Source of the DNA: Tridacna crocea
Lineage: Eukaryota; Mollusca; Bivalvia; Cardiida; Cardiidae
Direction of reading: 5' to 3'
DNA length: 64,000 bases
NCBI GenBank assembly: GCA_943736015.1
Contig: OX031066.1
Span: 6,882,245 to 6,946,244, forward strand
Shown here: positions 6,246 through 63,300 of the stretch, in pieces
Numbering within the stretch: position 1 is the first letter of the stretch
Layout of the letters: each line of letters opens with the position of its first letter
Notes under the pieces: model-generated
What the model saw: only the letters and a program-made list of their open reading frames with translations
Told to the model about the DNA's origin: nothing
The model's database searches: none
Translations under genes and position numbers: made by a program

Positions 6246-6394
6246 AAATGGGTATGAAATGACCAAAGTGTTTACGAGATGATCGAAGTAAGTAAGTACG
6301 AAATGACCAAAATAAAAAGAATCAGTGGGTACAAAATGACCAAAAATTGAACAAAATGGCCTAGGTACAAATTGACCTAGTTACGAAATGACTT
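6246..6394. repeat. Degenerate short tandem repeat (TACGAAATGACC units)
   Basis: At least six imperfect copies of TACGAAATGACCAAA separated by variable spacers, directly left of the fold-back structure. Confidence 0.7.
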
Positions 6395-7293
6395 GAAGCC
6401 GAGTAAACAATATGGCTGCCTCCATAGGTACTTTTCAAAACCTAATAAAAATATAGTGCCTCATGCGGCGCCACAATTATACGATCATCTCTCGTAATCA
6501 GATTACCAAGCTTGTAATAGCTTGGATATGTAGCAACCAGTTTTGCAATAAAAACGAGAGTTGCAATAAAATGTTCATATACGCGTATATCATATTCGAT
6601 CGTTTCCCAATCGAAACCAAATTAGAGTGCAATTTAATGTTAGGATGGATTATGTGAGACCTAAATTAAGTTACTGAAAGTGATTAAATACCGTAAATAA
6701 CTTGAATTATGATTTCTTAGGAAACAATATGTTTTTAATCAGTATTGCAATAAATTATTGCAAAATTCTTTGCGATGACAGAACCTTTATTACATTTCAC
6801 TTCACAACCAGTTTTGCAATAAAAAAAGAATTGCAATGAAATAATTATATATATCAAATTCAATCGTTTTCCAATTAAGACCAAATGAGAGTGCACGTTT
6901 ATGTTGAATTGAATAGTGCAAGACCTAAATAATGTTACAGAAAGAGTGCTTCAAAGACCAATAAGAACATTTAAGGCTATACACTTTTTAGGCTGAAATT
7001 TTTGAAAATTATCATAAAGCCGATTTGATAAGGTAAACAACACTAAATTCCGACTGCATAGGAAACAGTATGTCTAAAACCAGTATTGCAATGAATTATT
7101 GAAAAACTCGTTGCGATTACAGAAAATTTATTACATTTTACTTCGCAACTGGTTTTTAAATAAAAACGAGAAATACAATCAAATGATTATGTGTACCATA
7201 TTCGATCGTTTTTCAATCAAAACCAAATTAGAGTGCAATTTTATTTTGGATACTATTATTTAAGACCTGAATAAAATTACAGAATGTGAAAAT

Positions 7294-20194: not shown

Positions 20195-22062
20195 ACGAGT
20201 GGCTATGGTGTGCCTTGCTCAAGAATACTGCTACATGACTGGCAGGGTTTCAAACAGTATTTCAATAGAACAAACCCTTTGCCTTGACATAGAAATAAAT
20301 TTCAGTCACCTACAAAAACAAATCTACCCAAAAATATTTCACCAGTGTGAAAGAAGCGAAACTTGTCAATTATATCAGAGAATCAGCAAACGTATATTTT
20401 GGTCTCAGGCCGAAAGAAGTCCGAAGGTTTGCATATGAATGTGCAGTTACATTTAAAATAAAAGTTCCAGATTCTTGGCTTCATAACAAACAAGCCGGTC
20501 CTGACTGGTTTACTTCCTTTTTGAAGCGGCACAGCAATCTGTCTATCGGAATGCCGGAAGCAACAAGTCCCGCTCGTGCGACAAGTTTCAACAAAATAAA
20601 CATTAAAACGTTCTTTACAAAAATAGCCGAAGTTATGGACAGATATGAACTTTCTGCGGCACAGATGTATAATGTTGATGGTACGGGGTTAACGACTGTC
20701 CAAAAGCCCAGAAATATCTTTGCAGCGAAGGGAATAAAGAAAGTTGGTGCAATGACAAGCTCCGAAAGAGGCTCATTAATTACAGTGTGTCCGGCTGTTA
20801 TCGCCATAGGAAACGTCCTTTCTCCAATCCTAGTGTTTCTTCGAATGAACAACAAAGATTTTTTTTTCTATTCGGGATGGTCCGCCATGTAGTATTGGTG
20901 CTGCAAACAAGTCTGGCTGAATGATAGCAGATCACTTCCTAGATTATTTGAAGCTTTTCATCAAGCATGTATGGCTTTCTAAAGACCATCCCGTATTCCT
21001 ACTCGACTACCACGAGCCTCATCTGGCAATAAATATCGTAAATGATGCAATGGAGTGATCCCATTATCTTATCATTCACATTGGTCGCATAAGCTTCACC
21101 CACATGATAGATCTATTCATGGCCCTCTAAAGAAAGCAGTATCAACTGAATAATATAATTGGATGCAAAATCATCCTGGACAAGCAATGTCTATATACAT
21201 GTATGACCGTCCTGCCATTCTTCGAGAACCACTACAACGAACTGCTACTCCTCAGAATATAGTAAAAGGATTTGCAGTAGCGGATATATTCCCTTTTAAT
21301 CCAGAGATATTTTCAGACATGGATTTCGCTCCTTCGTACGCGATAGACCGCCCTATTGAGGCGACAATTGCAGACGACCTAATTATACAAGCTGGTAACT
21401 GTGGCGGACTGATTGAAGGGACATTTTCTGTGACAAACGACAACCTTTCCAGTGACGCTGATGGATGAGAGGCGATAGCGAGACATCTTGAAACATTTCT
21501 ATAATTTGGTTAAGGCTTTGTCTACATAGGATGTATTTTTTTCAAATTCTTGACTTGTGACAGGGTTTACCAAGTTGTCGAGTAATATTTGTTAGTTGCT
21601 GTTCGAACGGCCATGACATCCGAACACTTTTGTCTCATTTCAATCAATTCAACCCGATTTCTTTTTTTAATAGATGTACAAGATGGCATTTTCACACCCT
21701 ATACAATTCGTCCGTTGCCAAAGGCTGGTGTAAGAAAATAAAAAAAAGGAGGTTGCAGAAAGAGGAAGACAGCAATACTGACAGATATGCCGGAGAAACA
21801 AGCTTTAGAGCAAGAACAAAATGCTAGAAAGTCAAAAATCAGTAATGAAGGAAAAGGCTGTAAAAAGCTTTCATATAAATCTAAAACCAAGAAGAAAAGT
21901 AGAGAATATTTCTGCATTGTATGTGGGGAAGCGTTCTCAAACAGTAAACGCGGAGAACAGTTGTACGGTTGTAAGGAGTGGTCGGACGTTGAGTGTGTGC
22001 CGTTCAATATGTCATACCTCTGTTACAACTGTGGCTTAGTTGACTCTTACTTTATTCGCTGA
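20195..22062 (+). pseudogene. Broken pogo/Tigger-type transposase (Tc1-mariner superfamily)
   Basis: Remnant of a DNA transposon transposase. A helix-turn-helix fragment GYGVPCSRILLHDWQGF lies at about 20201. A CENPB-type DNA-binding region follows (20350-20550, with WLHNKQAGPDWFTSFLKRH). The DDE catalytic part shows YNVDGTGLTTV (20668-20700; normally DETG), LLDYHEPHL (about 20999-21025) and SHKLHPHD (21088-21108). Then come NHPGQAMS and FAVADIFPFNPEIFSD. The C-terminal part from 21760 has KTAILTD and a Cys-rich block (FCIVCGEAF ... CKEW ... LCYNCG) like the PHD-type zinc finger of related mollusc elements. The frame shifts at about 20885 and 21050, there are stops at 20920 and 21151, and the helix-turn-helix is in another frame. 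Not functional. Confidence 0.88.
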
Positions 22063-29405: not shown

Positions 29406-30444
29406 GGGCCTTTCACGAATTAAACTGCTTTCTTTGACCGTGTGGATCAAAATCATACGGCACAAAACGTGAAATCTGATCTTAAATCTATATTGTTCGC
29501 TTTCCTGCAAGATTCTAACTAAAAGCAATGTTGAGACGGACGTTACCGGCACCCTTTTCTTCAAAATAGAAATTTCTATTAGGTTCATTTTTGACGCTAA
29601 GGGTTAACAATCCGATAAATAATAATAACTTCTTCAACGTAATCCTGGATAAATGATTTCAGTCACGTTATGAGACTCAAAGCAGAAAATTTTCAATTAA
29701 ATTCCAGAAAAACGCAGTAACACAATTATACTCAACGAAAATGAGCTTTTCTTCCTCCAAGTCGTCGAAATACCTTTGTTTTGTATGGGTGACATTAAAA
29801 GCTTTTAGCACCATAAGTAGAAAAAGGGAAAGCTTGTAGACGGCATAGATAAAGATCAAATTGCACTGAGCCTACTGTCTGATCTTTGATCTATGCAGTC
29901 CGCTTGTTTATTCAAGCCTATCAAACACATGAAAATATTTCACTGAATTTTAGTGGGTTGTATGATCAGCCGTCAAAAGAAGCTGAGTTTACGAGGGTTG
30001 GTCGGGAATTTCTCAGAAATGTACACATTAATCTGTGATCCTATAGATTTGGCGTTTATATAGAAAAAAAGTATTTTTATCTTAATGTCGAATGTTTCAG
30101 TCTAAATCTGTATCTGCATTCAAAGATCCAGGTAAGAGCTGTCCTTGTATTTAGACGTTTGGTCTCTAAATGTTTTGTCTCGTTGCTGAAAATTATCTGT
30201 ATGGGACAACACTCGGTGGTTTGGAAAGTGTTGCAAAAACAAACAAGAGAAGAAAGTCCATAAATCCGTGATAAATCCAAAATCAGTCTAAGAAAAGGGT
30301 TTATCTTAGAGGCTTGAATCAAGAAGAAGGCGGTATAGATCAAAGCTCAAACTGCAGGTTTTGTGCACTGTAAGACTGTTCATTGTTCTTTGCAGACTGA
30401 TCTGGATCTATATCTTTTTAGTCTGCAAAATACCAGGGTCTGTA

Positions 30445-30786
30445 ATCATCAACCATTCTTAACCCTTTCCTAAACGACAAACTTTTGGACTAGACCAAAT
30501 TGAAAGCATTTGCAGATAACAATTCAACTCTTGCTGAAAAGATGATTTCTGTCTATGATAGGGTAGAAAACGTTGTGGGAAAAGGAGAAAATGCTGGTTA
30601 CCAGCATTTTCTCCTTTTCCCACAATGTTTTCAAAAGGCTACTATTCCAGACCCGTAAAAACCAGGGATTGTTTGGGAAAGGGTTAAGAACATTCTTTAT
30701 CTCACTCTTCAAGATTTTCTGTGAAAGTAACAGAACTTCTGACTGAAGAATAAGACTGAGAATGTTCTTAAGAATGGTTGGTGATA
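30445..30786. mobile_element. MITE family F carrying a nested family A element
   Basis: Outer inverted ends ATCATCAACCATTC / GAATGGTTGGTGAT match the family F copy at 39.1 kb (CACCAACCATTC). The inner 30459-30687 is a full family A element. Removing it and one TTAA restores CATTCTTAAGAACATTC. Confidence 0.8.
30459..30687 (-). mobile_element. MITE family A (complete, nested, TTAA duplicated)
   Basis: 229 bp from TTAACCCTTTCC to GGAAAGGGTTAA, perfect hairpin core GGAGAAAATGCTGGTTACC. Inserted into a family F element, which makes the TTAA target duplication unambiguous. Confidence 0.92.
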
Positions 30787-30898
30787 GACTGATAGACTTA
30801 ACACGTATCTTACTCAATAACTAACAGGAAACTTTCAAGTCGATACCAAAAACCTCAATATTGTCATTACAACGAACATTTTATTGATAAAAATGCAT

Positions 30899-34411: not shown

Positions 34412-36336
34412 TTACAAGGTTTCAACAACTACTCTTTCCGGGCCGAGGTGATATCCGTCGTCGCTATTCTTTTTAAAACTTCGTTTAAACATTCTTTGTC
34501 TCATATCATTCAGTTTATTGGAAAACCTATGACTATCGCTACGATCAAAGCGATCGGGTCTCCGCTGGCTATGAAAGGCCAGCGTGCCTTGTTTCCACTT
34601 TCTATGAATATTTTCAAGTCTATCTTCAAATATTTGCTGCAACAGTGGAACATTATTTTCGTTAGAATTACTTGGTTGATTTCTATACCTGCTTCTCTCA
34701 GATTTTAGACGTGTTCGCCTGAGAGTAGTGCGTTGTGGTCGGTCTTCAGGTGTCGGAAGTTGATTATATTGCTCTTCAATTTCTCTTATCGACCCGTTTG
34801 TAGTAATTTCATCATCATCATCGTCGTCGTAATCCGGAGGTAACTCGTCATAATCCGGTGCTGGTTCCATTCTTTGCAAACGCTGGGCTTCGGCAACAAC
34901 AAAACGCACAAAGTCCTCCTCTGTTGAAGAGTTCTTGAACCAGTCGATTCGTGTGCTTGACATAAGATGTAAAAATGTCCCCCATCTGTGGATAAACATA
35001 CTGACAAACTGAAGAGTGATGCAGAAAGCGAAAACAGACAAAAACATCAGCGACAGAGGTTCGTACTTATTGATGATATAAAAGGATTTAAGTTTGTCTT
35101 CCATCGACTGTAGTTGTAAGGTGATTACAGTCCAGAGGAAGTTAATCATAAAGTAGATAAACACGACGTTATTTTTGATTGTGATTAAATCTTTGGCAAT
35201 CTTCTCTTTGTGACTTTTATCTTCGTCCAGAGGGTGGAGATATTTATTGATGATGTAACGCCAAAACTCCGTTTCATCATCGTCTAATTTCTCAATTGGA
35301 CCGTTACCAAGATACTCTAAATGAAACCAGTAAGGTCTTTCAGGGTTTGGTTCCCACCCCGCAGGGTACTTATCCTCTATGATTGTCACAGGTTTGCTGA
35401 CCTGTCTGTCAACTCTTGGTGGCTTCTCCCTTGGTGCCGGAGTTGGCGGTTTGATTTCATCAGTTTGTACTGCAATTTCTTTCGATTCGTTTTCTTGAGC
35501 TTTGATTCCCATCAATGTTTTAGCTAATACTCTCAAGTCATTAATCAATTTATGGAAGCCAAGTCTGTGAAGCAAGGTTTTACTCTCTTTCTTCTTCTGC
35601 TTCTCCGCATCTTGTCTTTGCTTCTCCTCTAGTTCCTCCTTTGTCAGTTTCTTTGGCGTTTCTCTTGTACCCCAGGATACATTGTTCAAGTTACAAAGGT
35701 AGTAAACCGTGAGTAAGATAAAAGTAGAGGGTACTGTAAGGAAGTACAGTAAACCATAGATCAGACAGAAGAACTCTTGTGGATGCAGAATTCCAGCTAT
35801 CGTGAAAATCGTCACCAAACCTGTCAGAAACACAACGTTTGGGCTGCCGAAATTTTCCGTGACGATACTAATAATTGTGCCGACGGTCGCAATCATCATC
35901 ACCACGGTAAATATCGCACTTAGAACTGCCGCCGCCGTTATCTGGTGGTCGTTTTTCATAGTCATACATATCACAATATAAATGCCTACTGGAAAAATGG
36001 ACAGCATGTAGGATTCCCAAATGCCGATATTTAACACAGAGTGGTAGGATCCAGTAATCATAAGGATAATGGTTGAGGGAGCCAAAATTGTCGAAGCCAT
36101 GAGAATAAACTGGTAGAGAACGTAAGGTCTACTGATGTTGTCGTTGATACGCACTGTGTCATACCATCCAGACAGGAGGTCCATCATGTTAGCAAGGGTG
36201 GATGGAGCCCACCGTCTGCGCTGGTTAAAGAATTCATTGAACGTTTCAGGGGCAAAAGTCAAAGCGTCTGCTCCGGCACAATAGTCAATCCTGTGCCCTT
36301 GTTGCAGCAATAGTGTGCAGAGCCACCGATCCTCAC
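34412..36336 (-). CDS. CHS: Chitin synthase terminal exon: EDRW, QRRRW, SWGTRE, C-terminal tail
   Basis: Last exon, 640 codons plus TAA. It opens with GEDRWLCTLLLQQG (catalytic base region) and FFNQRRRW (processivity motif). Five hydrophobic helices follow and end at SWGTRE. Next come a charged coiled-coil stretch (KEELEEKQRQDAEKQKKKE), a block with PERPYWFHLEYLG, two more helices, and a cytosolic tail with an acidic run (PPDYDDDDDDE, including a PPxY motif) and an Arg-rich part (LRRTRLKSERSRYR). Acceptor ATTCAAACAG at 36339-36337. The frame stays open upstream to 36451, but that part is intron because it lies before the acceptor. Confidence 0.96.
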
Positions 36337-39300
36337 CTGTTTGAATAGAAAGGAAAGCAAGGTTAATCCCAAAATCAACCCCGAAAATAGATAAATTATT
36401 TTTTAATTCTTCAAACATGCAGTCATTTTCCCAGGTAGAATATCGAAACATGCTTCAAAACGGGACAGTTACGACGATTTTTTTGGTGCTTTCCGTTACA
36501 TAAACTACATAGTATACCGTACTTTACACGACTCCGCTTCAAATTACCCTTATATATTATAATAAACTCAAACAATTTCATTGATTTACATGTAAAAAAT
36601 TATCAAATATCTTTAAATTGATGGGAATAATATATGAATATCATAATATGCGCTGTATACAGAAAACCATCGCGAGTGATAGCTGTCACAATTTCGGAAA
36701 AAGACAGTAGTAAATGTATATGAAGATGTATAATTGTAAACGTCTTGGAATTAATTTTTTGTGGCTGTTTACGCACAACTATTAAAAACATTCAAAATTT
36801 TACCCTTTGGGTGCTAAGCGTGACTCCCTGACCTTTTGCGGACAGTGTAAACCAAGATCAGACTGCACAGAACGTGCAGTCTGATCTTGATCTACACTGT
36901 CCGATAAGGAGACATTATTCCCTAAAACATAACTTTAAACCTTTCCCAACGACAAATTTTAGACTCTTCCAAAATGAAGGAGCTTGCAGACGACAATTTT
37001 AACTTTTATAACAATGGCAGAAATTTATCCGAACAGGCAGAAAACACTGTGGGAAAAGTGTTTTCAAAAGACTTGTTCTGCAGGCACGTAAAAACAAGGG
37101 CTTGTTGGGGAAAGGGTTAAAATAGCAATATTTGACTTTTAACTATCAAATTAAAAATTTCAATTTAGTTATTCAGTATGATATGCGTTACCTACCTTGT
37201 TCGAACTGGATATAATGTCTAGCTTCAGTCGGCTTGGTCGTGTACATCTTCATCACGTTATCGTCCATTAGGGCTGATCCACGGAACAAGGAGAAGCAGC
37301 CCGGACAACAGAGGACGCAACCAAACACATGCTCAGCCGCCTTTTGTAGCCAGTGACCGACGGCGTACTCGAACTGTTGGTACCACACCATAGGACCTGA
37401 AAAGGATACATATCACGTGGCTAGATCATTTTTTACCGGGAAAAATCGGAAAATAAAAGTAAAAGACTAAGAATGTCCATCGGAATGGTAGTTGGATTCG
37501 GGTCAGGTCAAATTCCTGAGTACATCAATTCATAAAACATTTAGACCTCTTTCAACAGGGTTCAGAAGAGTCATGCTATAATAATACATGTAGGTCACCT
37601 TTATGTATTTGTCATCAAACATGCTTCATCATTGTTATCATTTCCCTCGCATACATCAAACAAATTTAGATCCGTTTTAATTCAAATTGTATTTGCCTGA
37701 ATGATACATAATTTAAAAATGAAGTATATGTCATATTTCAAAACCTGTATGGTAAACAAAAAAAAAAACCCCGAACTCATTGGGCGTTTACTACACATTT
37801 CTCGTGACGTCACAGATACCATTATGATACAGCATTAGTTATACATGGCAATTACCGTTACATCAAGGTTGATTGATCGAAAATTGTTGTAAAATTATTA
37901 TTTATATGACAAATCTGTCAAAGATGGTGAAAACAATATATTTTAATTCTTTCAAATGTTACTGAAAGGGAATTTTACTGCCAAAAAAGTTTCCCCTCTC
38001 CCCCAAAGCGTCCTTGGATGAGACAGTTTAAGGCCTCTGCCTAGTTGAGGTGATGCCTGGGAAAAGCATGAATACATGAGCTGTCACCATGATTTAGTGT
38101 AGCAGACAAAGGTTAGACTACAAATGCTCAGGATGTACAAATGCTCAGGATGACCCTGGGCTACATAATTTGAAGTAAAAAATAAGAATGTCGCGATACG
38201 TCGTACGTTGGTTTCATGAGGTTTCTCAAAATCCATTCTTCTATGGCTGACATGATGATAGTAATTTCAAGTATTTTTATTGGCGGAGAAAAGCAAGACT
38301 AGACCGTACAGACCATGCAGTCTTATCTTAACCTTTTACCCCATATGGCATCTCTAATTGACCCTATATGATAGCAAGGATGAAGCCGTTTCTTAAGTGT
38401 AAATGACACCTTTTGATAACATGAAAACATTGTGACAAAAGGTGAAATTGCTCGTCACGAGCAATTTCACCTTTTGCCTCAATGTTTTCCAAAGGCTCCA
38501 ACAAGCAATGTTTAGAAATGAGTGTCTGTGGAGTAAAGGGTTAAATTCACTTCAGGTAAATTTGCCAAGTATTATTTCAGATAAAATATAGGATGCGATA
38601 TTTGGATCACTCACTCTACAGAAAGCTAAGCGTTCTTGACATTTATTTTGCATTCTTGAGGTCAAGGTCGATTTTTTCAGAATCTTTATTTCAATGGAGA
38701 GTCTCGCATGTCGCACAAACACGTTTGCAGGTGTAAAGCATTAATCTTCACGTGTTTATGTCACTCTTTCAAAGCTAGATGGCTGACATACCTGTGAGCC
38801 ATGCTCTGAAAAAAGGGGGTTTGAACGCATTTGCAGCAAGTATCGACCAAGATCAGTCTGTCCAATCCGCGCATGCCGACCTTGATCGCAACTTTTTGCT
38901 TTCAGGCAATTTTTGCATGTCCAAGGACCAATCTTCTTCATAGTAAGCCCATATTAATTATTTGACGACTTACTTGGTATAATATATCACAGAAATTCAT
39001 CAAACATTGCCAGAGCGTGGCTTATACTATATCTATAGATTCAGTTTTCAAATAGTGCAGCATAACCTTATATTCTGGGCCCGTATTCACCAACCATTCT
39101 TGAGAATATTCTCCAAGGTTTTCTAATTTTGTAAGTAACACAACCTCTGATTGGCTAAATCATTCGGTTTAGCCAATCAGAGGTTGTGTTACTTACAAAT
39201 GTAGAAAATTCTAGAGAATGAGACAAAGAACGTTATTAGGAATGGTTGGTGAATACGGGCCCTGATCTTCATCGAAACAGTCTGCTCAAGCAACTAAGTT

Positions 39301-42300: not shown

Positions 42301-45300
42301 CAAAATGTTGTGGATCATTATGCCCTTATACATTTACGACTTGTACTCCGATTGCTACTTTACGTGACAAACGGGATAAGAAGTTCCATAGATAAATAAA
42401 GTAACAACAGTACGTCCGCCGTGTTTTTGGAACGTATTCTCCATCAACATATTACACTAAAGTTTATTTATTTAATATATAATAATATTATATTCAATCT
42501 TTGCAGGCGATTATAAACTGACATTGTTTGCATTTTTTTATTGATTATTTCAAATTGTTGAAATCTACTTTAGTGCACCTCAGAAGACTTTACTGCAACA
42601 AAGGGTTCTCAACTGTAGTGTGATATGAGTATACTAGTATATTACAGTCGTTGTTTTTTTTGTATTTTATTCTCAGCGGCGTTGGTCGTGTGGGACTTGA
42701 CCATTTCCTATCATACCTTACAACTCACACGTATACAGTCGTCGTAATCCGTTAATGAAATAAGATCCGACTACATATACGCAGTCTAATCTTGTTCTGA
42801 ACTTTTCAATAAAAACTGAGTTCAAGCAGAACAGTAAGTATTGATATTTGGTTCTGGTTTTATAACTAGCAAGAACGCCATGTCACATGAAAGCGAAGAT
42901 CTCGGCTACTAAAGACCACTCAAGACAGGAAAATAAAAGCTTTATTGCAACCACCCGCGTTGTAATTTCCGTACAATCATATTTGTTCCCTTTTATTTCT
43001 AGATTTAAAAGTGACTGTAAAGCCCTTGGGATTTCTGGTAGGAAACAAGAGAAATAATTAGAGTGGTTTGAACTGCATGTTTTAATATCAACCCTTAACA
43101 AGCTAAATGATTTGATTAAAATTTCAAGCCTAGAGTTAAAACAGAAATAATACTATTTTAAAATTAATATTTGGAGAAAAATATCACGTTTTCTGTGCAG
43201 TCTGATCTTGATCTACACTGTCCGCAAAAGGTCAGTGAGTCGCGCTTAGGGGCCCAAGGGTTAAACCCCGGGGTGCCAAATGAGCAAATAGACATTTTTA
43301 GACAAGAGGTGAAATCTTGTAGGATTTTATGCAGTGTTATCCAAAATAGTTTTACGCATCTGAAAATATCGATCCAACTACTTGCCATGATTATGCTCTT
43401 TTGATTTTTTTTCTTCAATGACTTCAAAAGCCTTTAACTCATTACCACACGAGAAAATTTTGGACTGGTCCGAATTGAAAGCATTTGCAGACAACAAAAT
43501 AAAGGTGACTGAAAAATAGAATTTTTTTCTGGGAAGGGTAGAAAACACTGTCGGAAAAGGAGAAAATGCTGGTTACCAGCATTTTCTCCTTTTCCAACAG
43601 TGTTTTCAAAAGGCTTCTTTCTCAGGGGCGTCAAAAGTAGGGATTGAGTGGTAATGGGTTAAACAACAACAACAAAAAAAACGTTCATTTAGTTCATCAA
43701 ATCTCGACTTCATCTAACACGTGTTTTACTCTTTACCAGAGAACAATATGGTCTGTAACACGCGAAAAGGGGTATTTGAATATTGGCATAAAGTGTCGTC
43801 TCGAATTAGCCTGCGCAATCCGCGCAGGCTAATCCGAGACGATACTTTATGACTACATTAGATGTTGTTCTACAGAAGACATGAGCGAAACAGAAAGTCA
43901 CACACAACTGGATATAGACGAACTTTATGCAAACGTCCGAATGCCCCTTTTAACGTGTTCCAGGCAAATTATTGTAGAAAGTTCCAATTTTAAAAAAGAA
44001 GTTTGACGACGAAATAACGAGTTAAGATTGCAAGATTTATATAAGATACGGCATAAAACATTGTTGAGAGAGTGGAACATAGTGGTTTACGTTTTCCCCA
44101 ATATTTTCCAAAGTATTCTTCACAATAATTTTGCAAAAGTTTTAAACTTACCTTTTCGTACTGTTCCGTATCCAGCTTGTTGAAAAGCGACTTGATTGGT
44201 CTAGACAAGTAATCCTTCTTCGAGCGGCCCTTCTTCCTGTTTCTTGCTTTCGACATCCGGCTTTCCAATTCGGAATCCTCGGTGAAGGCCCTTTCCGTGT
44301 CTTTAGCCCCGAACAGACGGAAGCCCAGCAAGTAGTACATGTACATACACTGTAATTAAAACAACGCAATGAATGGTGCGGGTGATGTAAGGATTGTGGG
44401 TCGGCTTCACACATCGAAGGTCGCGCGTTTCAGTGCTGTTATTTAGTCTAATAATTGACTTGCTTCAGAGGTAGCATGGTCTTTTGACATGCAGAAAATT
44501 GACCTGGATCGATTCATTTGAAGATGCTGTTAGAGTTTCTCATGTGTATGAGTCATGCACTATAAAAATGGGACTTACTGCATCTGCAAAGAGTATCGAC
44601 CCAGGTCAGCCCGCGCAGTCCGCGCAGGCTGAACTTAGTCGAAACTTTTCGCTATTGGTCAATTTTCTGCATGCCAAAGGCCCAGTCTATCTCATGATTA
44701 ACTCAATTATTAATATAAGTAGCTATAATGCATCCACGAGTACGTGATGGCTTGCTAGTTGTCATGTATCACGAAGATGCATTTAGCTCCCTTTTACCAG
44801 AGTCTGTCTCATATCATTTACGGACAGTCTTAGCTGTCATCAGAATTTTACGCTTTGATAGACACAGGTCTTCAAGATGTTCTTTGAAATGCCAAATAAA
44901 TATTATATTTGCAAGAACAAATATTCGATCTGCTAAGTGTCTGTAATTCCATTAAATATCCTGTCATTTACGTTTTAACTCATGACCACACAGTCCCTAA
45001 TTTTGACCTTTAGAAAACATTGTGGGAAAAGGAGAAAATGCTGGTAACCAGCATTTTCTCCTTTTTTCACAATGTTTTCTGTTCTTCACAAAACAAATAT
45101 CAAATTTTCAGTCACTTTTATTTTATCGTCTTCAAAAGCTTTCGACTTGCACAAGCCTAAAAATTGAGTGGTTTGATAAAAATATAATGGTTACGTTGAT
45201 ATCAAGGTGAAATTCGACTGCGAAAGGTACAAAACTACAGATAAAGATAAACTTTTATGTCCATGAGGCCTGGTAATTTTTTTCCTAAATGAAGAAATGT

Positions 45301-48300
45301 TACCATGTTAACAAGATAATATACATAACTATCTGGTAGTTGGGGTGAACATACACATTGACTAGTATTAATGTGATAAGTAAATAGAAATTACACCCTA
45401 CCCCCAGCTACCCTCATATATTTGTAACAGTTCTAACAAGCAGTCGTCATCGGTGGGGTTTGAACCCTGGACCTCCGTGTCGCAAGGTGAACACTCTACC
45501 ACGTGGCTATAAAAGCTAGCTCTATAGGAAGGCAGTATAAGTGTCCCCTCATATCAACACAAGCTATACCTTTACATCTATCTGTGAGATAGACCATAGG
45601 CACTTGGTTTCTTTGTCTTTTACTTTTGTGCCTTACCTCTTCCATTTCGGCTGATCTTAAATACTAGAAGGTTTCGCAGCGGCCATGTTTTAAAGCAACG
45701 GAAGCACTTGACCAGGTTTCGATATACGCTGACTCCCGAATCGTTATTAAAATGCTGGCAAATAAAGGTACCAGGATAATGTAAACAAGACGTTCTATTT
45801 TAAGAATAGAAAAATATTTCACTTCCGTTGCTTTAAAACATGGCCGCTGCAAAACCTTCTATTATTTAACTCTTTACCACACAAGAAAATTTTAGACTGG
45901 TCCAAATTGAAAGCATTTGCAGACGACACAATAAAGGTAACTGAAAAATTGGAATTTGTTTTGTGAAGGGTAGAAAACATTGTGGGAGAAGGAGAAAATG
46001 CTGGTTACCAGCATTTTCTCCTTTTCTCACAGTGTTTTCAAAAGTCTTCTTTCTCGGGGGTGTCAAAATTAGGGATTGTGTGGTAATGGGTTAAGATTTG
46101 CAGGAAAAGAACAGGTAAATTACAAAAGTAAAAGACAAGGAAACCGAGTGCCTGTTGGATAGACCAGTATACTACATATTCAATGATTATGCAAAAGGTG
46201 CATCACAGAGCCATAAGCCTGGTACACGAAACCACGAACCAGGCTGCGCCAAGACAGACAAAGTCAGAGTTTAATGATGGAAAACAAGAAAAAAATCAGG
46301 AGTAATAATGTCAAAAAAAAAAAGTTTCGTACCTGTGACCACCGTTTCCTGTGTCTGATCTTATTCTTGTCTTTCAGGTGGACGTTCAGTTTGGTGTGCC
46401 CGGGCATGGTCCATACCAGGCGACCTCCATAGGGTGTGGCATACTTCGTGGGTGGGGATATTACAATCGGTCCCTTCACTACAGACCTGTTTGGGAAAAA
46501 GTAAAATCAGATGACCATAATTATTTTGCAAACGTCCTTACAGTAATTCACCAAACATGGTACAGTTTCCTTTGTTGCAAAATAAGATCAACCTCTTATT
46601 CCCTTTGCCGCACAATGACGACTTTTAACGACCATGGAAAACAAGCCTTTTGAAAAAATTTTGGGAAAAGGAGAAAATGCTGGTAACCAGCATTTTCTCC
46701 TTTTCCGACAAAGTTTTCTACCCTATCAAAGAAAAATCACATCATTTGAGCCACTATGAATTTGTCATCGGCTATTGCTTTCAATTTGGATAGGTCTAAA
46801 ATTGTGCCGAGTGGTAAAGGGTTGATAAATAAAGCAAGTCCAATCTTTTGTGAAAACCTAATTATCACCCTTCATAATTCTTTTCCCCAGAAAACTCAAC
46901 AACGTGTCGAACAATTAATTTCAACGATCAGATTGCACGTTCTGCACAGTCTGATCTTGACCTACACTCTCAGCAATAGAGTAATGAGTAGCACTTAGTA
47001 ACCCTAGGGTTAAATCGGTTTATCTCGAGAGCTCCTACAATCCGCTGGATGACGGCGCCTTTGTATCATAGCTTTAACAATGTACCAGAAAGTTCAAATC
47101 TAAGATCAGACCGCAAGTTTTGAGTATTCTGATCCCCATCTGTATTGTCCGCGAATGTATAGAATGCAGAATGAAAAAAAAAAAAACTAAATCGATATCT
47201 TTTCGAGATAAAATTATTTTTCATTGTTCTCGATCAAATTACCTGTCATTAACCCTTTCCCAAACAATCCCTGGCTTTTACCGGTCAGGAATAGAAGCCT
47301 TTTAAAAACATTGTTGGAAAAGGAGAAAATGCTGGTAACCAGCATTTTCTCCTTTTCCCACCATGTTTTCTATCCTTCACAAAACAAATATCAAATTTTC
47401 AGTCACTTTTATTTTGTCGTCTACAAATGCTTTCAATTTGGACCAGTCTAAAATATTGTCGTTTGGTAATGGGTTAAACATTAGAGATGTGCAGTATGAT
47501 CTTAATCTATATACCTTGCGCAACGGTGACTAAAATCGCCCTAAGCTGGCACGAGGCCTTTGTATGACATTGCAGTTACAGAAAATTATCTGTGATAATT
47601 ATTGATTGATATAATCGTGATCATACTCGCCTTTTCGGTCGCATTTAATGTCGGACACGTGACACGGGAAGTAATATAATTGACGGCCTGCCTATTTTTG
47701 TCTTATGAATATCTATGCGTTCTTTTTTGAATTGACGTTTTCATTCCTCACCTACGTTTAGTTTGCTCCTGCCGACAGATATACGGTAAAAAACGGAGTA
47801 GAAAATATTGTGGGGAAAAGGGAATCGCTGGTTACCAGCATTTTTCTCCTTTTCTCACAATGTTTTGGGAAGCGTTCTGCCGTCCCAGGGATGTTAAAAA
47901 ATGGCTCTGTCTGGTAAATAGTTGAACTGCCTAAATCTTTGATATCTGCCATTACTCATAAAATGTCAAAGTTGTATATATATACTGTTATTGTTTTCAA
48001 AAGTGACATATAGGCCCATGGGGCCGGGTGTTTTTGATTTCATCATTTATTTGTGAAACTGAATTTCTTATAAACATGTCACTATAATAAAATATTTACT
48101 TACTTACTTCTTGGAAAAGGAGAAAATGCTGGTAACAGCATTTTCTCCTTTTACCAGAATGTTATCTACCCTGCTGGAAACACATATCAATTTTTTAGTT
48201 ACCTTTATTTTGTCATCTGCAAGTGCTCTCAATTTAGACCAGTCTAAAATTTTGTCTTTTGGAAAAGCGTTAACACGACGGGATTTTTCTTTGAACTGGT

Positions 48301-51300: not shown

Positions 51301-54300
51301 TTGCGTCATTTCCTGTCTGGTCTCGTGCCACATAGTCGCGCATGCGTAGATAGTCGGTATCACATTCTTTGAGTTCATGTTGACGTCCTCGCCATAATTA
51401 TCGTCTCCAACATAGCGGAATGTATCGAAACCAGTCAATCGAATCTCCTTATCGTTCCTACGTCGTTTCAGTGTAAGCGAGAAATCCGGGAAAAGTCCAA
51501 CAAAGTGTGGTGTTATGAACAATCTACAAAAGTAATTTCAAATGCCACCATTTTCATTGCTTAAAGAACGAAATGAAATATGACAAAAACAATTTCAAAA
51601 TCGGATTATACATGTACCTAAGTAATTTTAGAAGGATTTGGAAAAACAATGAGTAAAAACAGATACGATTCGATGACGTTTCTGTGAGGTAATATTTCAG
51701 CATGATGAAGCGTTCGAGACAGAAGTTTCCTCTGTTTTCGGTATTTACCTTTAGTAAACAATCAAATGTTTTAAGGACCCTGGGAATAAAGCTCCCGAAA
51801 ACATTGTGAGTACAGAGGAAATGTCGGTGACCAGCGTTTTCTTCTATTCCCACAACACTATATACCCTTTTAAGAAAAATCCAACCATTTTCGACACACC
51901 TAATTATCTTTTTGATAACTAACATCAATATGATAGGGGTCTAAGATTACCTCGTGCATTGAAAATGAAAACCAATGGTTTCATGTAAAATTATCAGCAG
52001 CTCTTGTTCATATCCATTTTTGATCAACAGAACAATCTAGTCAAGAGATTCAGAGTAGAATCTTAAACTCGATATATTGTAATTCAATTCTTTTTCTTTA
52101 CTTTTGCAAGCATTTATAATAAAAATAATCTTACTTCTCAAGTTTAGCCATCCTCTCACTCTGAGGGAACCAGATATGTCCAGTAATGATGATGTACGAA
52201 AACCACAACACTGAAGCGCAAATTAGGGGAATCATCAGCTCTTGTAAAGAATCGCCAGCACAGAACCATCCACCCATATGCCAATGGGCCGGTATAAACT
52301 CAAACGTGCATTGTAAATACACGACAGCCAACGAAATAGGTGGAGCCAGTATAATCGGCAGAGAGAAAGCCATCTTCTGCATGTGAAGTTTGCAAACGAG
52401 TCCGGAGAGATAAGAAATCAAAATTCCGGAACCGATCTGGAGATACATTAGACTATAGCAATGTAGATGTTCTTCAAAAGCACTGATATGGGTGGTGTTG
52501 TCGTTACTGTAGTCGGATGTCGCAAGTTTGAAACTCGTGTTGTAGGTCAACAGCCTTGCCAGCAAGACAGTAAAGCCTATTTTCCACGGGTAGACCAAAA
52601 GGCAAGCGGTATCACGCGAATCTTGCAGAATTTTTCTCCACTGTTTAAATGGAATATGAATCTTTCCAAAAACTGACCAGTCCCCTGATACATAGTTCTC
52701 CCAGTATCCAAGCGACATCAAAATAAGGCCAACCGGAAGTTCCCATGAGAGGGCAGGACCTATTGTGACAGGCGTGTGTTTGTACGCTGTGCTGTTTATG
52801 CCCTCCAGGATGGTATGGTTGCCTTCCATCAAAAAGTTGCCCATACTGAAGAATGGTATAGAGACAATTTGTACCAGGAAAGCCGAGATGTTCAGAATCA
52901 TGGCAACGATCTCACTGATACTTGGATTCGGTCGCTTTTCAAGAACGATAACTTTGAGCAGACTTGGAATTTGGCAAATGGCGAAAGTGAGGATAACTCC
53001 TCGAAATATATCCGTCGATGGCAGGACCCTAAATATCACGAGACAGGCTCCTAGAGTCTGGAGACATTCTATTACCACCAACTGAAAAGAAAAAAAAAAA
53101 GATCATAAGTTTGATTTATTTTGTTGTTGTTTTATTTGATTTTTGATGTCAGTAAAACATTACCTTCTGTCAACATAATGAAATTTCTGCCTTAACCCCC
53201 TGGAGCGCTAGGTAAAGAAAATGGATATTTTTTGCTTGGATAAAGAATCATATAATACATTTTTAAAGCTCTTTTACCAACAAAATCTCAGCAGACTCGA
53301 CATTGTGAGACCAAGATCAGACTGTACATTTTGAGCTATCGGGTCATGAATCTACACTGCTCCCAGAGGCAACATGTATGTTTATTATAGAGAGTATAAT
53401 AGTAGAAATTTCATCTGTTATCTGAAGAACGATCTTTTATTATTCTGGACAGTAATTGATTACTCCAGATGACGGTTGTAACTTTAATGTTTTACATAGA
53501 CAAAGATGAATTACGTTCTTTGTGTGTAACAGACAAAACTGAAATTCTGCCAATCATTAAATCACAGAGCAGGATGTATATCGCTTATATCTGATGTCTT
53601 TTGCGATATGAGAGGGAACAAAGATTAGCCTATGCTCCTTTCATTATCAATTAATCTTTCAAGTTTTCTTATTTCTTACTTGTGGTGCCCGGCAGGAGAC
53701 TAAAAGTGAAAGCTTTGTGACATAAGGAAAAATGAAAAAAAAAATCCTTGGCCTCTATGTACTGTTATTTATCTCTATCCCATGTTTTATATCAATGCAC
53801 TTAAACACGTTTGCAGCAGTTAATGAATTAAACTACCACAAAATCCTGAGTTTTAACGAAAGTGAGAATAAGGTCTTTTTGAAAACATTTTGGGAAAAGG
53901 AGAAAATGCTGGTAACCAGCATTTTCTCCTTTTCCCAAAATGTTTTCTACTTCATCAAAGACAAAAATCTGTCATTTGAACGTTCTTTGAATTGATGTCG
54001 GCTTTAAAGTTAGGCCTGTCCATTTTTGTTGTTGTGTTGCTAAGAAGTTAATTCTTTAACAGATAAACTGGACTTTTAATCACACTGAGGGAGATAACTT
54101 CGAAAATATAAAATTGGAAAATGTTCTTATCAACATTTTCCTTTTTCGACAATGCTGTGATATATGATAAAGAAGTTTCATGTTTTGAATTCTTTCTTCA
54201 CTGTCTACAAATGATTTCGATTTGAAAGACGCCAAAATTTTGTCGTGTAGCAAAAGTTTAACCCTTTACCAGACGACAATATTTTTGCCCTGTCTAAATC

Positions 54301-60300: not shown

Positions 60301-63300
60301 ATGATGAGCGGTGGGAGAGGAATGAATCCTGTCGCAATGACTATCATCAATCTTCAGAAGGAAACTGTTATGAAAATATGGTAGTTCAGATTTGAAAATG
60401 TGATTCTAAGAAAAAAAAAATGATATTATTATGGTGGAAATAGTTATTTTCCATTAGGGGTCTACTTCCTTAAGGTAGTGGACCCGTAATAGGCCTAGTG
60501 CAGCATGGCATAAAAGTTTCGTGATATAATACTTTTGCACATTTCTAACCGACCAGAAATTCCTTTGATGTTTATCTTGAAATCATTTGTTGATACTTTT
60601 GTTAGTTTCCAGAAAAGGGAGGTAATTATCATATCCATTTGTAATGAAAATATAATGGTTTTAGATTTACAAATGATAATTCTGGGAAAGACTAAAAAGG
60701 AAAAAGTGGCTCGGTGAAAGTAGTGCAATAATACTAATTTTTAATCCTAGCAAATTTTGTAGTACAATAATATAGTGGAAATAGCTGTTTTCTATTCAGG
60801 GTCCACTACGTTAAAGACAAACTCCATCCTTTGATTTGAAAACCGCATGCTGTTCTGTTTTCATCTCATTTATAAATGGCAAAATCTTTTACCTACAGCA
60901 TCGTTAAAACTTAAAATTATTTTGTAATTCAACTCACCACTGCTCGCTTGATCCTTCCGACTCGTACGAGCCCGTTGTCGTACTTTTGCTATCCTCCGAA
61001 AGTTGTCGTTTCGGGGGTAAGCTAGCGTTGTCATTGTTGAGGTGGCGGGGTGGGGGATTTGGGGCGTGGCGTTTTGTGGGACGACCGATACTCTCCAAAG
61101 GTCCATCTTCGTTATTGCTTAGCTGTGAGAGTTTCTCCTTCAGAAGAGCTGCCGTGTCTGTGAAAACTGAAAGCAAGGAACTTGGATGGATGAGCCACGT
61201 TCAGTTAACCCATTACCACGCAATCCCTTCTTTTGACGCCCCTGAGTCAGAAGTCTGTAGAAAACATTGTGCGAAAAGGAGAAAATGCTGGTAACCAGCA
61301 TTTTCTCCTTTTCTCACAATGCTTTCTACTCTTTGCAACACAAATTTCAAATTTTCAGACACTTTTATTATGTCGTCTGCAAATGCTTTTGATTTGGACG
61401 AGCCTAAAATAGTGTCGTTTGGTAATGAGTTAAACAGAATTTTGATGCATTTCCGTGATGCAATGGCCTTTTATCACACAATGGCGACTTTTAACTTCCC
61501 CGAAAGATAAGCGTTTTGAAAACATTGTGGGAAAAGGAGAAAATGCTGGTTACGAGCATTTTCTTCTTTTCCCACAATGTTTTCTATCCTATCAAAGAAA
61601 AATCATTTAATATGAGCCACATTTAAATCTGTCATCTGCAAATGCTTTCAATTCCGACAGGTCTAAAATTGTGTTGTTTGGTAAAAGGATACTATTAAAA
61701 CTATTAACCCTTTACCCCATAAGGCATTTCTATGGTATCTCTAATTGGCCCTAAATAACAGCAAGGATGAAGCCGTTTCTTATGTGTATATGACACCTTT
61801 TGATAGCATAGAAAACATTGTCACAAAAGGTGAAATTGCTCGTCACGAGCAATTTCACCTTTTGCCACAATGTTTTCCAAAGGCTCCTACAAGCAATGCG
61901 TAGAAATGAGTATCTATGGAGTAAAAGGTTAAGTCATCACATAACTATAGACCTATAATGGCAATTTCACAAATAGTTGACTAAATAATGGGGTAGAATG
62001 ATATTTAGATATGCAGAAAACTTAGCAAAGGAAAACATGATGTCCTGGTGAGCCTGCGTGGACTGTGCAAGCTGACCTAGGTCAATATTCATCGCAAATC
62101 CATTAAATTCCCTTTTCACTGATCAAGGATCGTATAAACATATATTTGCAGTGACTGTCGCAATATCTTTGAAACATTGTTGAAAACGGCGTTTAACACC
62201 ATACAGACAAAAACAGGTCAGGATATTTTTCAATATCGCATTGGAACTTAATTACAAATACATTACAAAACAGGATATCTTTTTGTTTCTTTCGTCTAAC
62301 ACATGATGTATGTTTTGCTCGAAAAACGTCAGATGTTCAATGTAGAGAGATATATCTTCATTTGACATGAACGATTGCTATAGATGCAACAAACTAAACC
62401 CTTTTTAATGCAGTGTGCATAAATGTTGTGTTGCCTTTTGTGGACAGTGAAGATCAAGATCAGACTGCACGGAACGTGCAGTCTGATCTTGATCTTCACT
62501 GTCCAATATCTAAATGAGATATCTTGGACTTAAACGTATTGATATTGCTGAAGGTTTCTAGGATTGAAAATACACTTTTAGCTTGCTAAGCACTAATCTT
62601 TTTTGTTGTTAAGTGAAGAATGGTTATTTCGACGTTACTGTCTGATGAAAAGATGACCGAATACATTTTATTGTATCGATATCATCTCCAATTTGGAAAT
62701 TCCATTCCTGACTTTTTTAGGGAGGGCGGACGGGGAAAGTAGAAAGGTGGGGAGAGAAAATGAAAATTTTAATCCACGTCAACATTTTTTTCTCTTCAAA
62801 ATGTTTTTCAGAGTTCACACACAAAAAATGCAAACTACGGTTAAATTCTTTTTAGTTAATGTCTTACAAATTGTAGATCGTAAATAATGCGAAAACAAAC
62901 TAGATGTAGATCTGCTATCATGTAAATGTAAAATATAGATTACAGAAAATATTGACATTTCAAAATATTGCGGTTTACTTTTCAAACAGAAATGTACATC
63001 AGCGATCATATTTAACGTCTAAGTTTTTAAGAAGAAATGGTTTTAAATATAACATTACAACTCTTAGCTTTACCAATTCAATTTTACTAATTAGCTCACT
63101 GGGAAATGTTAACTAGGGGACTTCGAACAGAAATGCAATAGATTGTCTTAGCCTATGACTGTGCTTTTATGACGTCACATAAGACATAAATGATTTATAA
63201 TCAGCTTCATATACGATCATAAAACAAAAATGAAGGTAGGCTCCTGTGGCTATTTAAATCTAAGCTGCTAAGTGCGACTCGCCGACCTTTTGTGGACAGT

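Follow-up and report, generated by a model that had tools for sequence, protein, structure and literature searches.

A TTAA-flanked, piggyBac-like MITE family in Tridacna crocea and its resemblance at one end to resident piggyBac transposons

Which kind of transposase moves the short element found at 30459-30687 of a 64,000-nucleotide stretch of Tridacna crocea DNA? In this stretch (the window, C11:6882245-6946244 in the contig naming of the genome), the element, a member of family A, lies inside an element of another family, family F. A sequence-only reading had called family A piggyBac-like, with TTAA as its target sequence and CCC...GGG as the element proper.

The nested insertion and its empty sites

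First, the nested element was compared with its host. The element, which runs from TTAACCCTTTCC to GGAAAGGGTTAA, is inserted in family F just as the sequence-only reading had described (Table 1), and it matched the family A profile with 202.9 bits (the copy itself is one of the eight profile seeds). The alignment on which that reading relied, CATTCTTAAGAACATTC with CATTCCTAATAACGTTC, was genuine, with 14 of 17 bases the same, and the uninterrupted second copy of family F was present where it had been placed (about 39077-39264). Its arithmetic of the removal needed correction: CCC...GGG comprises 221 bases, and the cut is these 221 plus one TTAA, 225 in total, not 225 plus one TTAA. When the flanks were rejoined at one TTAA, the junction was gap-free against three uninterrupted F arms. 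The opposite arm of the nested F element (30785-30684) carries the empty site CCATTC TTAA GAACATTC, with a single TTAA, and has the same bases as the rejoined site across CAACCATTC TTAA GAACATTCT. The right arm of the second F copy (39264-39174) also aligned with the rejoined site, with CTAA replacing TTAA, and so did its left arm (39077-39112), with TTGA at the target. The uninterrupted arm within the nested F element itself, missed by the sequence-only reading, is a better empty-site control than the one used there. Since the F terminal repeat contains TTAA, F arms may be recurrent targets. Another family A copy, at L038:40-271, apparently lies within a family F arm.

Table 1. Positions of family A and family F features in the window
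Feature	Position	Strand	Basis or remark
Family A MITE including both TTAA copies	30459-30687	+	Element proper CCC...GGG at 30463-30683, 221 bp; sequence, profile match, genome copies
TTAA target duplication, left copy	30459-30462	.	Sequence, many-copy count, empty-site comparison
TTAA target duplication, right copy	30684-30687	.	Sequence, many-copy count, empty-site comparison
Family F left terminal arm, interrupted by the MITE	30436-30458	+	Matches 39077 onward; outer boundary set by eye
Remainder of the family F element, including the uninterrupted opposite arm	30688-30790	+	Outer boundary set by eye
Unoccupied TTAA in the opposite F arm	30768-30771	-	Empty-site control within the same element
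Second family F copy, uninterrupted	39077-39264	+	Target equivalents CTAA (39236-39239, minus strand) and TTGA
Family A central palindrome (AAAAGGAGAAAATGCTGGTTACCAGCATTTTCTCCTTTT and flanks)	30566-30632	.	In the best-conserved part of the family; conservation by position, DNA fold
Family A copy, TTAA on both sides	43434-43662	+	Profile match
Family A copy with a clean empty-site relative	45866-46094	+	Relative at 45704-45598, single TTAA, 86.9% over 107 bp
Family A copy, TTAA on both sides	47249-47477	-	Profile match
Family A copy, TTAA on both sides	61205-61433	-	Right end against PB7 5' end: 39 bp, 82%
Family A copy, second core type (GGTGAAATTGCTCGTCACGAGCAATTTCACC)	61704-61932	+	Profile match
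Family A copy, TTAA on both sides	63460-63689	-	Profile match

Allowing up to two mismatches, TTAACCCTTTCC has 48 occurrences in the window, whereas 100 shuffles gave 7.2 on average and never more than 15; a chance origin of family A is therefore excluded. A profile built from eight window copies found 42 non-overlapping loci in the window at E <= 1e-3, partial ones included. At 221 bp family A is too short to encode a transposase, given that the PF13843 (piggyBac transposase) stretches in full-length resident transposases measure about 1.1 kb. The window also holds a separate inverted-repeat family, the palindromic repeat AAGTGTCGTxTCGxATTAGCCTGCGCA... at 1436-1618 and 43791-43851, and pieces of chitin synthase (PF03142 and PF23000) on the minus strand at 34412-36454 and 52131-53102.

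The search for empty TTAA sites, which the sequence-only reading had proposed, was extended to 50 rejoined junctions compared with DNA in which family A was masked. For minus-strand copies the flank filter lacked precision, since it used the far and not the near part of the flank, and this affected which 50 junctions were chosen; as family A was masked correctly in the searched DNA, none of the empty sites listed is itself a family A copy. Ten of the 50 junctions had a relative that runs across the join, and the other 40 had none. Five junctions were gap-free within 10 bases (window:30459, window:45866, L018:549, L037:199 and L034:554), with four bases between the flanks, either TTAA or CTAA, TTGA, GTAA or GCTA. 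The sixth, L028:603, kept TTAA and had a gap 7 bases beyond it. Four junctions were gapped at or near the join and were uninformative (L016:544, L037:612, L028:1009 and L038:40). The cleanest empty site was that of the copy at 45866, and the L018 and L037:199 copies apparently lie in the same target repeat.

Target duplication and terminal bases

A single nested insertion in TTAA cannot separate a TTAA duplication from a TA duplication of an element with A...T ends; a test over many copies can. To the window we added 39 further loci from the same genome (1.05 Gb, 31 contigs), chosen around the sequences that best matched the window copy; 40 of 1,106 first-look candidate matches were scored. 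These 39 loci and the window yielded 134 hits to the profile at E <= 1e-8. Both ends could be mapped with enough flank for 74 of them, 19 of these in the window, and the remaining 60 were dropped. A perfect TTAA was present on both sides of 53 of the 74 copies, on one side of 17 and on neither side of 4. Each of the eight TTAA positions was kept in 67-72 copies (1.41-1.79 bits), while the eight positions outside TTAA carried 0.02-0.24 bits. For the 21 copies in which TTAA is imperfect on one side or, in four of them, on both, we assume decay or misplaced ends. The alignment of copies with their flanks thus showed TTAA kept and the neighbouring outer bases nearly free, and together with the empty sites the 53 doubly flanked copies bear out the earlier claim that TTAA is target sequence and CCC...GGG the element proper.

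These counts also bear on the reading that the duplication is TA only and that family A is a Tc1/mariner- or pogo-type MITE starting with ACCC and ending with GGGT. One nested insertion in TTAA fits TA as well as TTAA, and a frame in the window at 20299-20892, possibly a pogo-like transposase remnant, has a weak match to a Tc5-type DNA-binding domain, below the cut-off (E 0.0052). However, the outermost T of TTAA is present in 67 left ends and 70 right ends of the 74 copies, whereas the adjoining outer position is nearly free, with T in 36 and 38 copies (a mild T preference). A TA duplication is excluded because the outer TTAA positions are kept while the bases beyond them carry at most 0.24 bits. 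Resident piggyBac elements, moreover, share the TTAA flanks of family A. We therefore rejected the Tc1/mariner TA-only duplication, with the outer T and A kept in 67-70 of the 74 copies, and consider this reading extremely improbable.

The terminal bases were examined in the same 74 copies. Sola3 also targets TTAA. The family A end began with C in 69 left and 68 right ends. The second base was T in 16 left and 6 right ends, so that CTC variants exist, and the fourth base was A in 13 and 14 ends, so that CCCA variants exist as well; the ends of PB7 and PB63, two resident piggyBac elements described below, carry the same CTC- and CCCA-type variants. The window copy has CCCT at both ends and fits the CC[C/T]T terminal motif of piggyBac-type MITEs as given in PMC2872659. 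The sequence-only reading had taken TTAA targets with CCC/GGG termini as the hallmark of piggyBac; this stands for the combination, but TTAA alone is not diagnostic, as Kolobok also uses it (PMC9587614). Family A could in principle be of the Kolobok type, comparable to the T2-MITEs of Xenopus: as described in PMC9587614, Kolobok duplicates TTAA, as family A does, and is reported from molluscs, and the T2-MITEs are a TTAA family assigned to Kolobok (PMC6004289). The Kolobok termini given in PMC9587614 are, however, 5'-RR...YY-3', whereas family A ends begin with C, and one family A end resembles an end of resident piggyBac elements. We rejected a Kolobok-type MITE on the terminal bases, the C start not fitting RR...YY, and see only the slightest chance that it is correct.

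Resident piggyBac transposons and the ends of family A

PF13843 had 118 matches in the genome of the window, some of them pieces of one gene, and zero matches in 14 control genomes. Thirty of the 118 matches were examined as transposase loci. The element named PB7 (L080:167-7369, 7,203 bp) has four further copies on other contigs that are 99.6-99.96% identical over about 7.2 kb, and two older copies at 97.7-98.2% and, in pieces, 95.3-96.9%. Its ends, TTAACCCATTACCGTTCAATAACGCCTTTTGACGCCCC and TTAACTCATTACCACTCAGAGAGG, were defined by the limits of homology between copies. Among the five near-identical copies (L078-L082), three have TTAA on both sides; L082 has an altered left end and L081 an altered right end. 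One of eight wider regions, L085, had no match over 250 bp to PB7 and was dropped. The PB7 open frame of 492 codons matches PF13843 with E 2.7e-88, and in the PDB its transposase matches piggyBat 9c0f (9.3e-40) and 6x67 (3.3e-36). The aspartates of its VDE, FDN and GVD motifs, which we take to be the catalytic residues, align with those of piggyBat. The near-identical copies and the open frame make PB7 a strong candidate for recent transposition. The second such element, named PB63 (C7:18507265-18513640, 6,376 bp), was seen in one copy; its transposase is 79.7% identical to that of PB7, the frames are intact in both, and the homology between the two elements stops at TTAACTCTTTCCCACACAATCCCGACTTTTTACGACCCC and TTAACTCTTTCCCACACAGACAGG. 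Four other piggyBac types with TTAA-flanked paired ends were also present, with the ends CCCTTTATATAC, CCCTTTCAGYGC, CCCTAGTCATGC and CCCATTTATGCC.

PB7 and PB63 carry 35-bp tandem repeats just inside one (5') end, within the first 140 bp in PB7 and from about 15 bp inside the 5' end in PB63 (ACAATCCCGACTTTTAACGACCCCATCTTATTTGA), and these are possible transposase-binding repeats. The family A right end holds one stretch that resembles the 35-bp repeat unit. Like the piggyBac transposons with solved transposases (PDB 9c0f piggyBat, 6x67 and 6x68), which the PB7 transposase matches, the resident elements have TTAA flanks, but they differ from the solved systems in their length of 6.4-7.2 kb and in having subterminal 35-bp tandem repeats at one end.

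Family A is itself present within these elements. PB7 holds a full-length nested family A MITE at 6345-6574 and several shorter stretches like pieces of the MITE, and PB63 has family A-like stretches between the transposase and the 3' end. The sequence CTCATTACCAAACAAAAAA(A/T), found next to seven PB7-type transposases, at first looked like an end in common with family A but was discarded, as it belongs to the nested MITE of PB7. No family A interior was recognised in PB7 outside nested-MITE-like stretches or pieces, in the portion of the comparison that was inspected. The reverse nesting was also seen: at L054:775-3762 another piggyBac type (ends CCCTTTATATAC) apparently lies inside a family A MITE.

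The ends of family A were then scored against those of the resident elements as identities over the 34 (or 24) positions after TTAA, taking the best of the 74 family A copies. The family A left end reads CCAAACGACAAAATTTTAGACTGGTCC; one example of the right end is TTAACCCATTACCACACAATCCCTACTTTTGACG, and the window copy has TTAACCCTTTCCCAAACAATCCCTGGTTTTTACG there. The best family A right end matched the 5' end of PB63 (TTAACTCTTTCCCACACAATCCCGACTTTTTACG) at 30 of 34 positions and that of PB7 at 28 of 34. The right end of the window copy itself agreed with PB63 at 26 of 34 positions and with PB7 at 20 of 34. Because the higher figures are best-of-74 scores, the same scoring was applied to 2,125 TTAA sites that lie outside family A: 2,123 reached at most 23/34, and two reached 31. 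Both of these are the same end, similar to that of family A, which adjoins the elements of L052 and L062 and has no family A core next to it. Over 24 positions the PB63 5' end scored 22 and the PB7 5' end 18, and the eight ends of the four other piggyBac types scored 10-15. At the left end, the best family A copies matched the 3' ends of PB7 and PB63 at 21/34 and 20/34, which is within the background range, and at 16/24 and 15/24, which is barely above the other piggyBac types. Over the first 12 positions the left end of the window copy shared 9 with the PB63 3' end and 6 with the PB7 3' end.

Among the 30 transposase loci examined, no piggyBac with both ends matching family A was found. A search of L048-L087 with the family A ends only gave four matches, three at L054:775 and one in L078, and no new autonomous element; the three at L054:775 apparently represent a MITE split by another piggyBac. 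The autonomous piggyBac with the same ends, which the sequence-only reading had suggested looking for, was thus found for the right end (PB63 30/34, PB7 28/34) and not for the left (20-21/34, background). With a match to PB7 and PB63 at one end only, the class is supported, but the direct source element was not found. With its TTAA target, its CCC/GGG termini and a resident piggyBac with one similar end, family A is piggyBac-like, as first proposed.

We put the probability at about nine in ten that family A is a non-autonomous piggyBac-type MITE served in trans by a transposase of the PB7/PB63 lineage or a close relative. In the proposed mechanism, such a transposase would be supplied in trans and bind the family A ends, and family A would be cut out at TTAA and then inserted at another TTAA. 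Every copy would lie between two TTAAs because the transposase excises and inserts at TTAA. A competing reading keeps the piggyBac type and assigns the movement to a lineage other than PB7/PB63, with its own left end, that is unsampled or extinct. The background-level match of the left end favours it, and so do the lower scores of the right end in the window subfamily (26/34 with PB63, 20/34 with PB7) and the sampling of 30 of the 118 transposase matches. Against it, family A right ends reach 30/34 with PB63 and 28/34 with PB7, far above the other piggyBac types examined. We give this other lineage slightly less than an even chance. The movement of family A by the PB7/PB63 transposase lineage is itself inferred.

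Abundance, central palindrome and relation to known MITEs

The subfamily of the window copy, defined by at least 90% identity over at least 190 bp, was present in 34 of the 39 loci, with five loci having no qualifying copy. Both TTAAs were present in 26 of the 34 copies and one TTAA in 8; in two of these eight (L024 and L038) the match stops before the right end. The median identity was 97.0%, and the window subfamily therefore spread recently.

At E <= 1e-8, family A accounts for 10.1% of the window sequence (31 hits) and for 8.0% of the 122.8 kb in the 30 transposase loci (56 hits). These loci are a non-random sample and include several PB7 copies that carry the same nested MITE. In four arbitrary 2-kb places it was found in 4/4, with 9 hits and 21.9% coverage. 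It is plausible, from these small samples, that family A makes up about a tenth of the genome. Some copies abut directly, as might be expected when each copy brings new TTAA targets. The 39 MITE loci had five such junctions, four of them at TTAA; the transposase loci had three, of which two were at TTAA and one was at TTAT; the four arbitrary places had one, and the window had none (E <= 1e-8).

We also analyzed the conservation of family A along its length. In the 74 copies, columns 101-180, which include the central palindrome, carried 1.51-1.80 bits per position in ten-column blocks, against 0.92-1.56 in the other blocks. This conservation is only suggestive, because about half of the 74 copies come from one young subfamily and detection by profile favours good cores. 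The DNA fold of the whole element had a z of -9.8 relative to shuffled sequence, with the palindrome as its longest helix. The second core type (Table 1) keeps the palindromic form with different bases. Our guess is that the central palindrome or the subterminal repeats may have a role. A bolder proposal is that family A makes up about a tenth of the 1.05-Gb genome (hundreds of thousands of copies) and that its palindrome, better kept than the rest and not recognised in PB7 outside nested-like stretches, is a selected part of the spreading machinery; we find this somewhat unlikely.

The closest precedent is the CMITE group of the coral Acropora with the piggyBac-like element AmiPB1, as described in PMC2872659, and family A is another member of the same kind. 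According to that source, CMITEs are likewise short MITEs that duplicate TTAA and have termini of the CCC type, in some families CCCTTTCCC; one of the families has terminal repeats in common with the resident AmiPB1, and an empty allele, tandem arrays and an inner region better kept between families than the ends are reported too (PMC2872659). The CMITEs are about 96-108 bp long, with 18 to 737 copies expected per family (PMC2872659), whereas family A, TTAAs included, measures about 229 bp, contains a long palindrome at its centre and occurs at far higher density; the likeness is one of description. The T2-MITEs of Xenopus resemble family A in having a TTAA target and in being prevalent, long-lived and recently active, but have AGGRR termini and a different, Kolobok transposase (PMC6004289). 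Among the titles in the literature listings, none names family A; repeat libraries such as Repbase lay outside this comparison, and the family may have been named earlier.

The class assignment, which at first stood on seven terminal bases, now has behind it a large number of insertion sites, as well as resident piggyBac elements whose transposase frames are intact and one of whose ends is similar. Recent movement is indicated by the PB7 copies, which are nearly identical, and by the MITE subfamily at 97% identity. PB7 and the MITE would thus make a practical system for studying how a MITE comes to outnumber its helper, and whether end sequence, subterminal repeat or central palindrome is what is recognised. 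If the abundance estimate holds, a large share of a genome would derive from one piggyBac MITE family.
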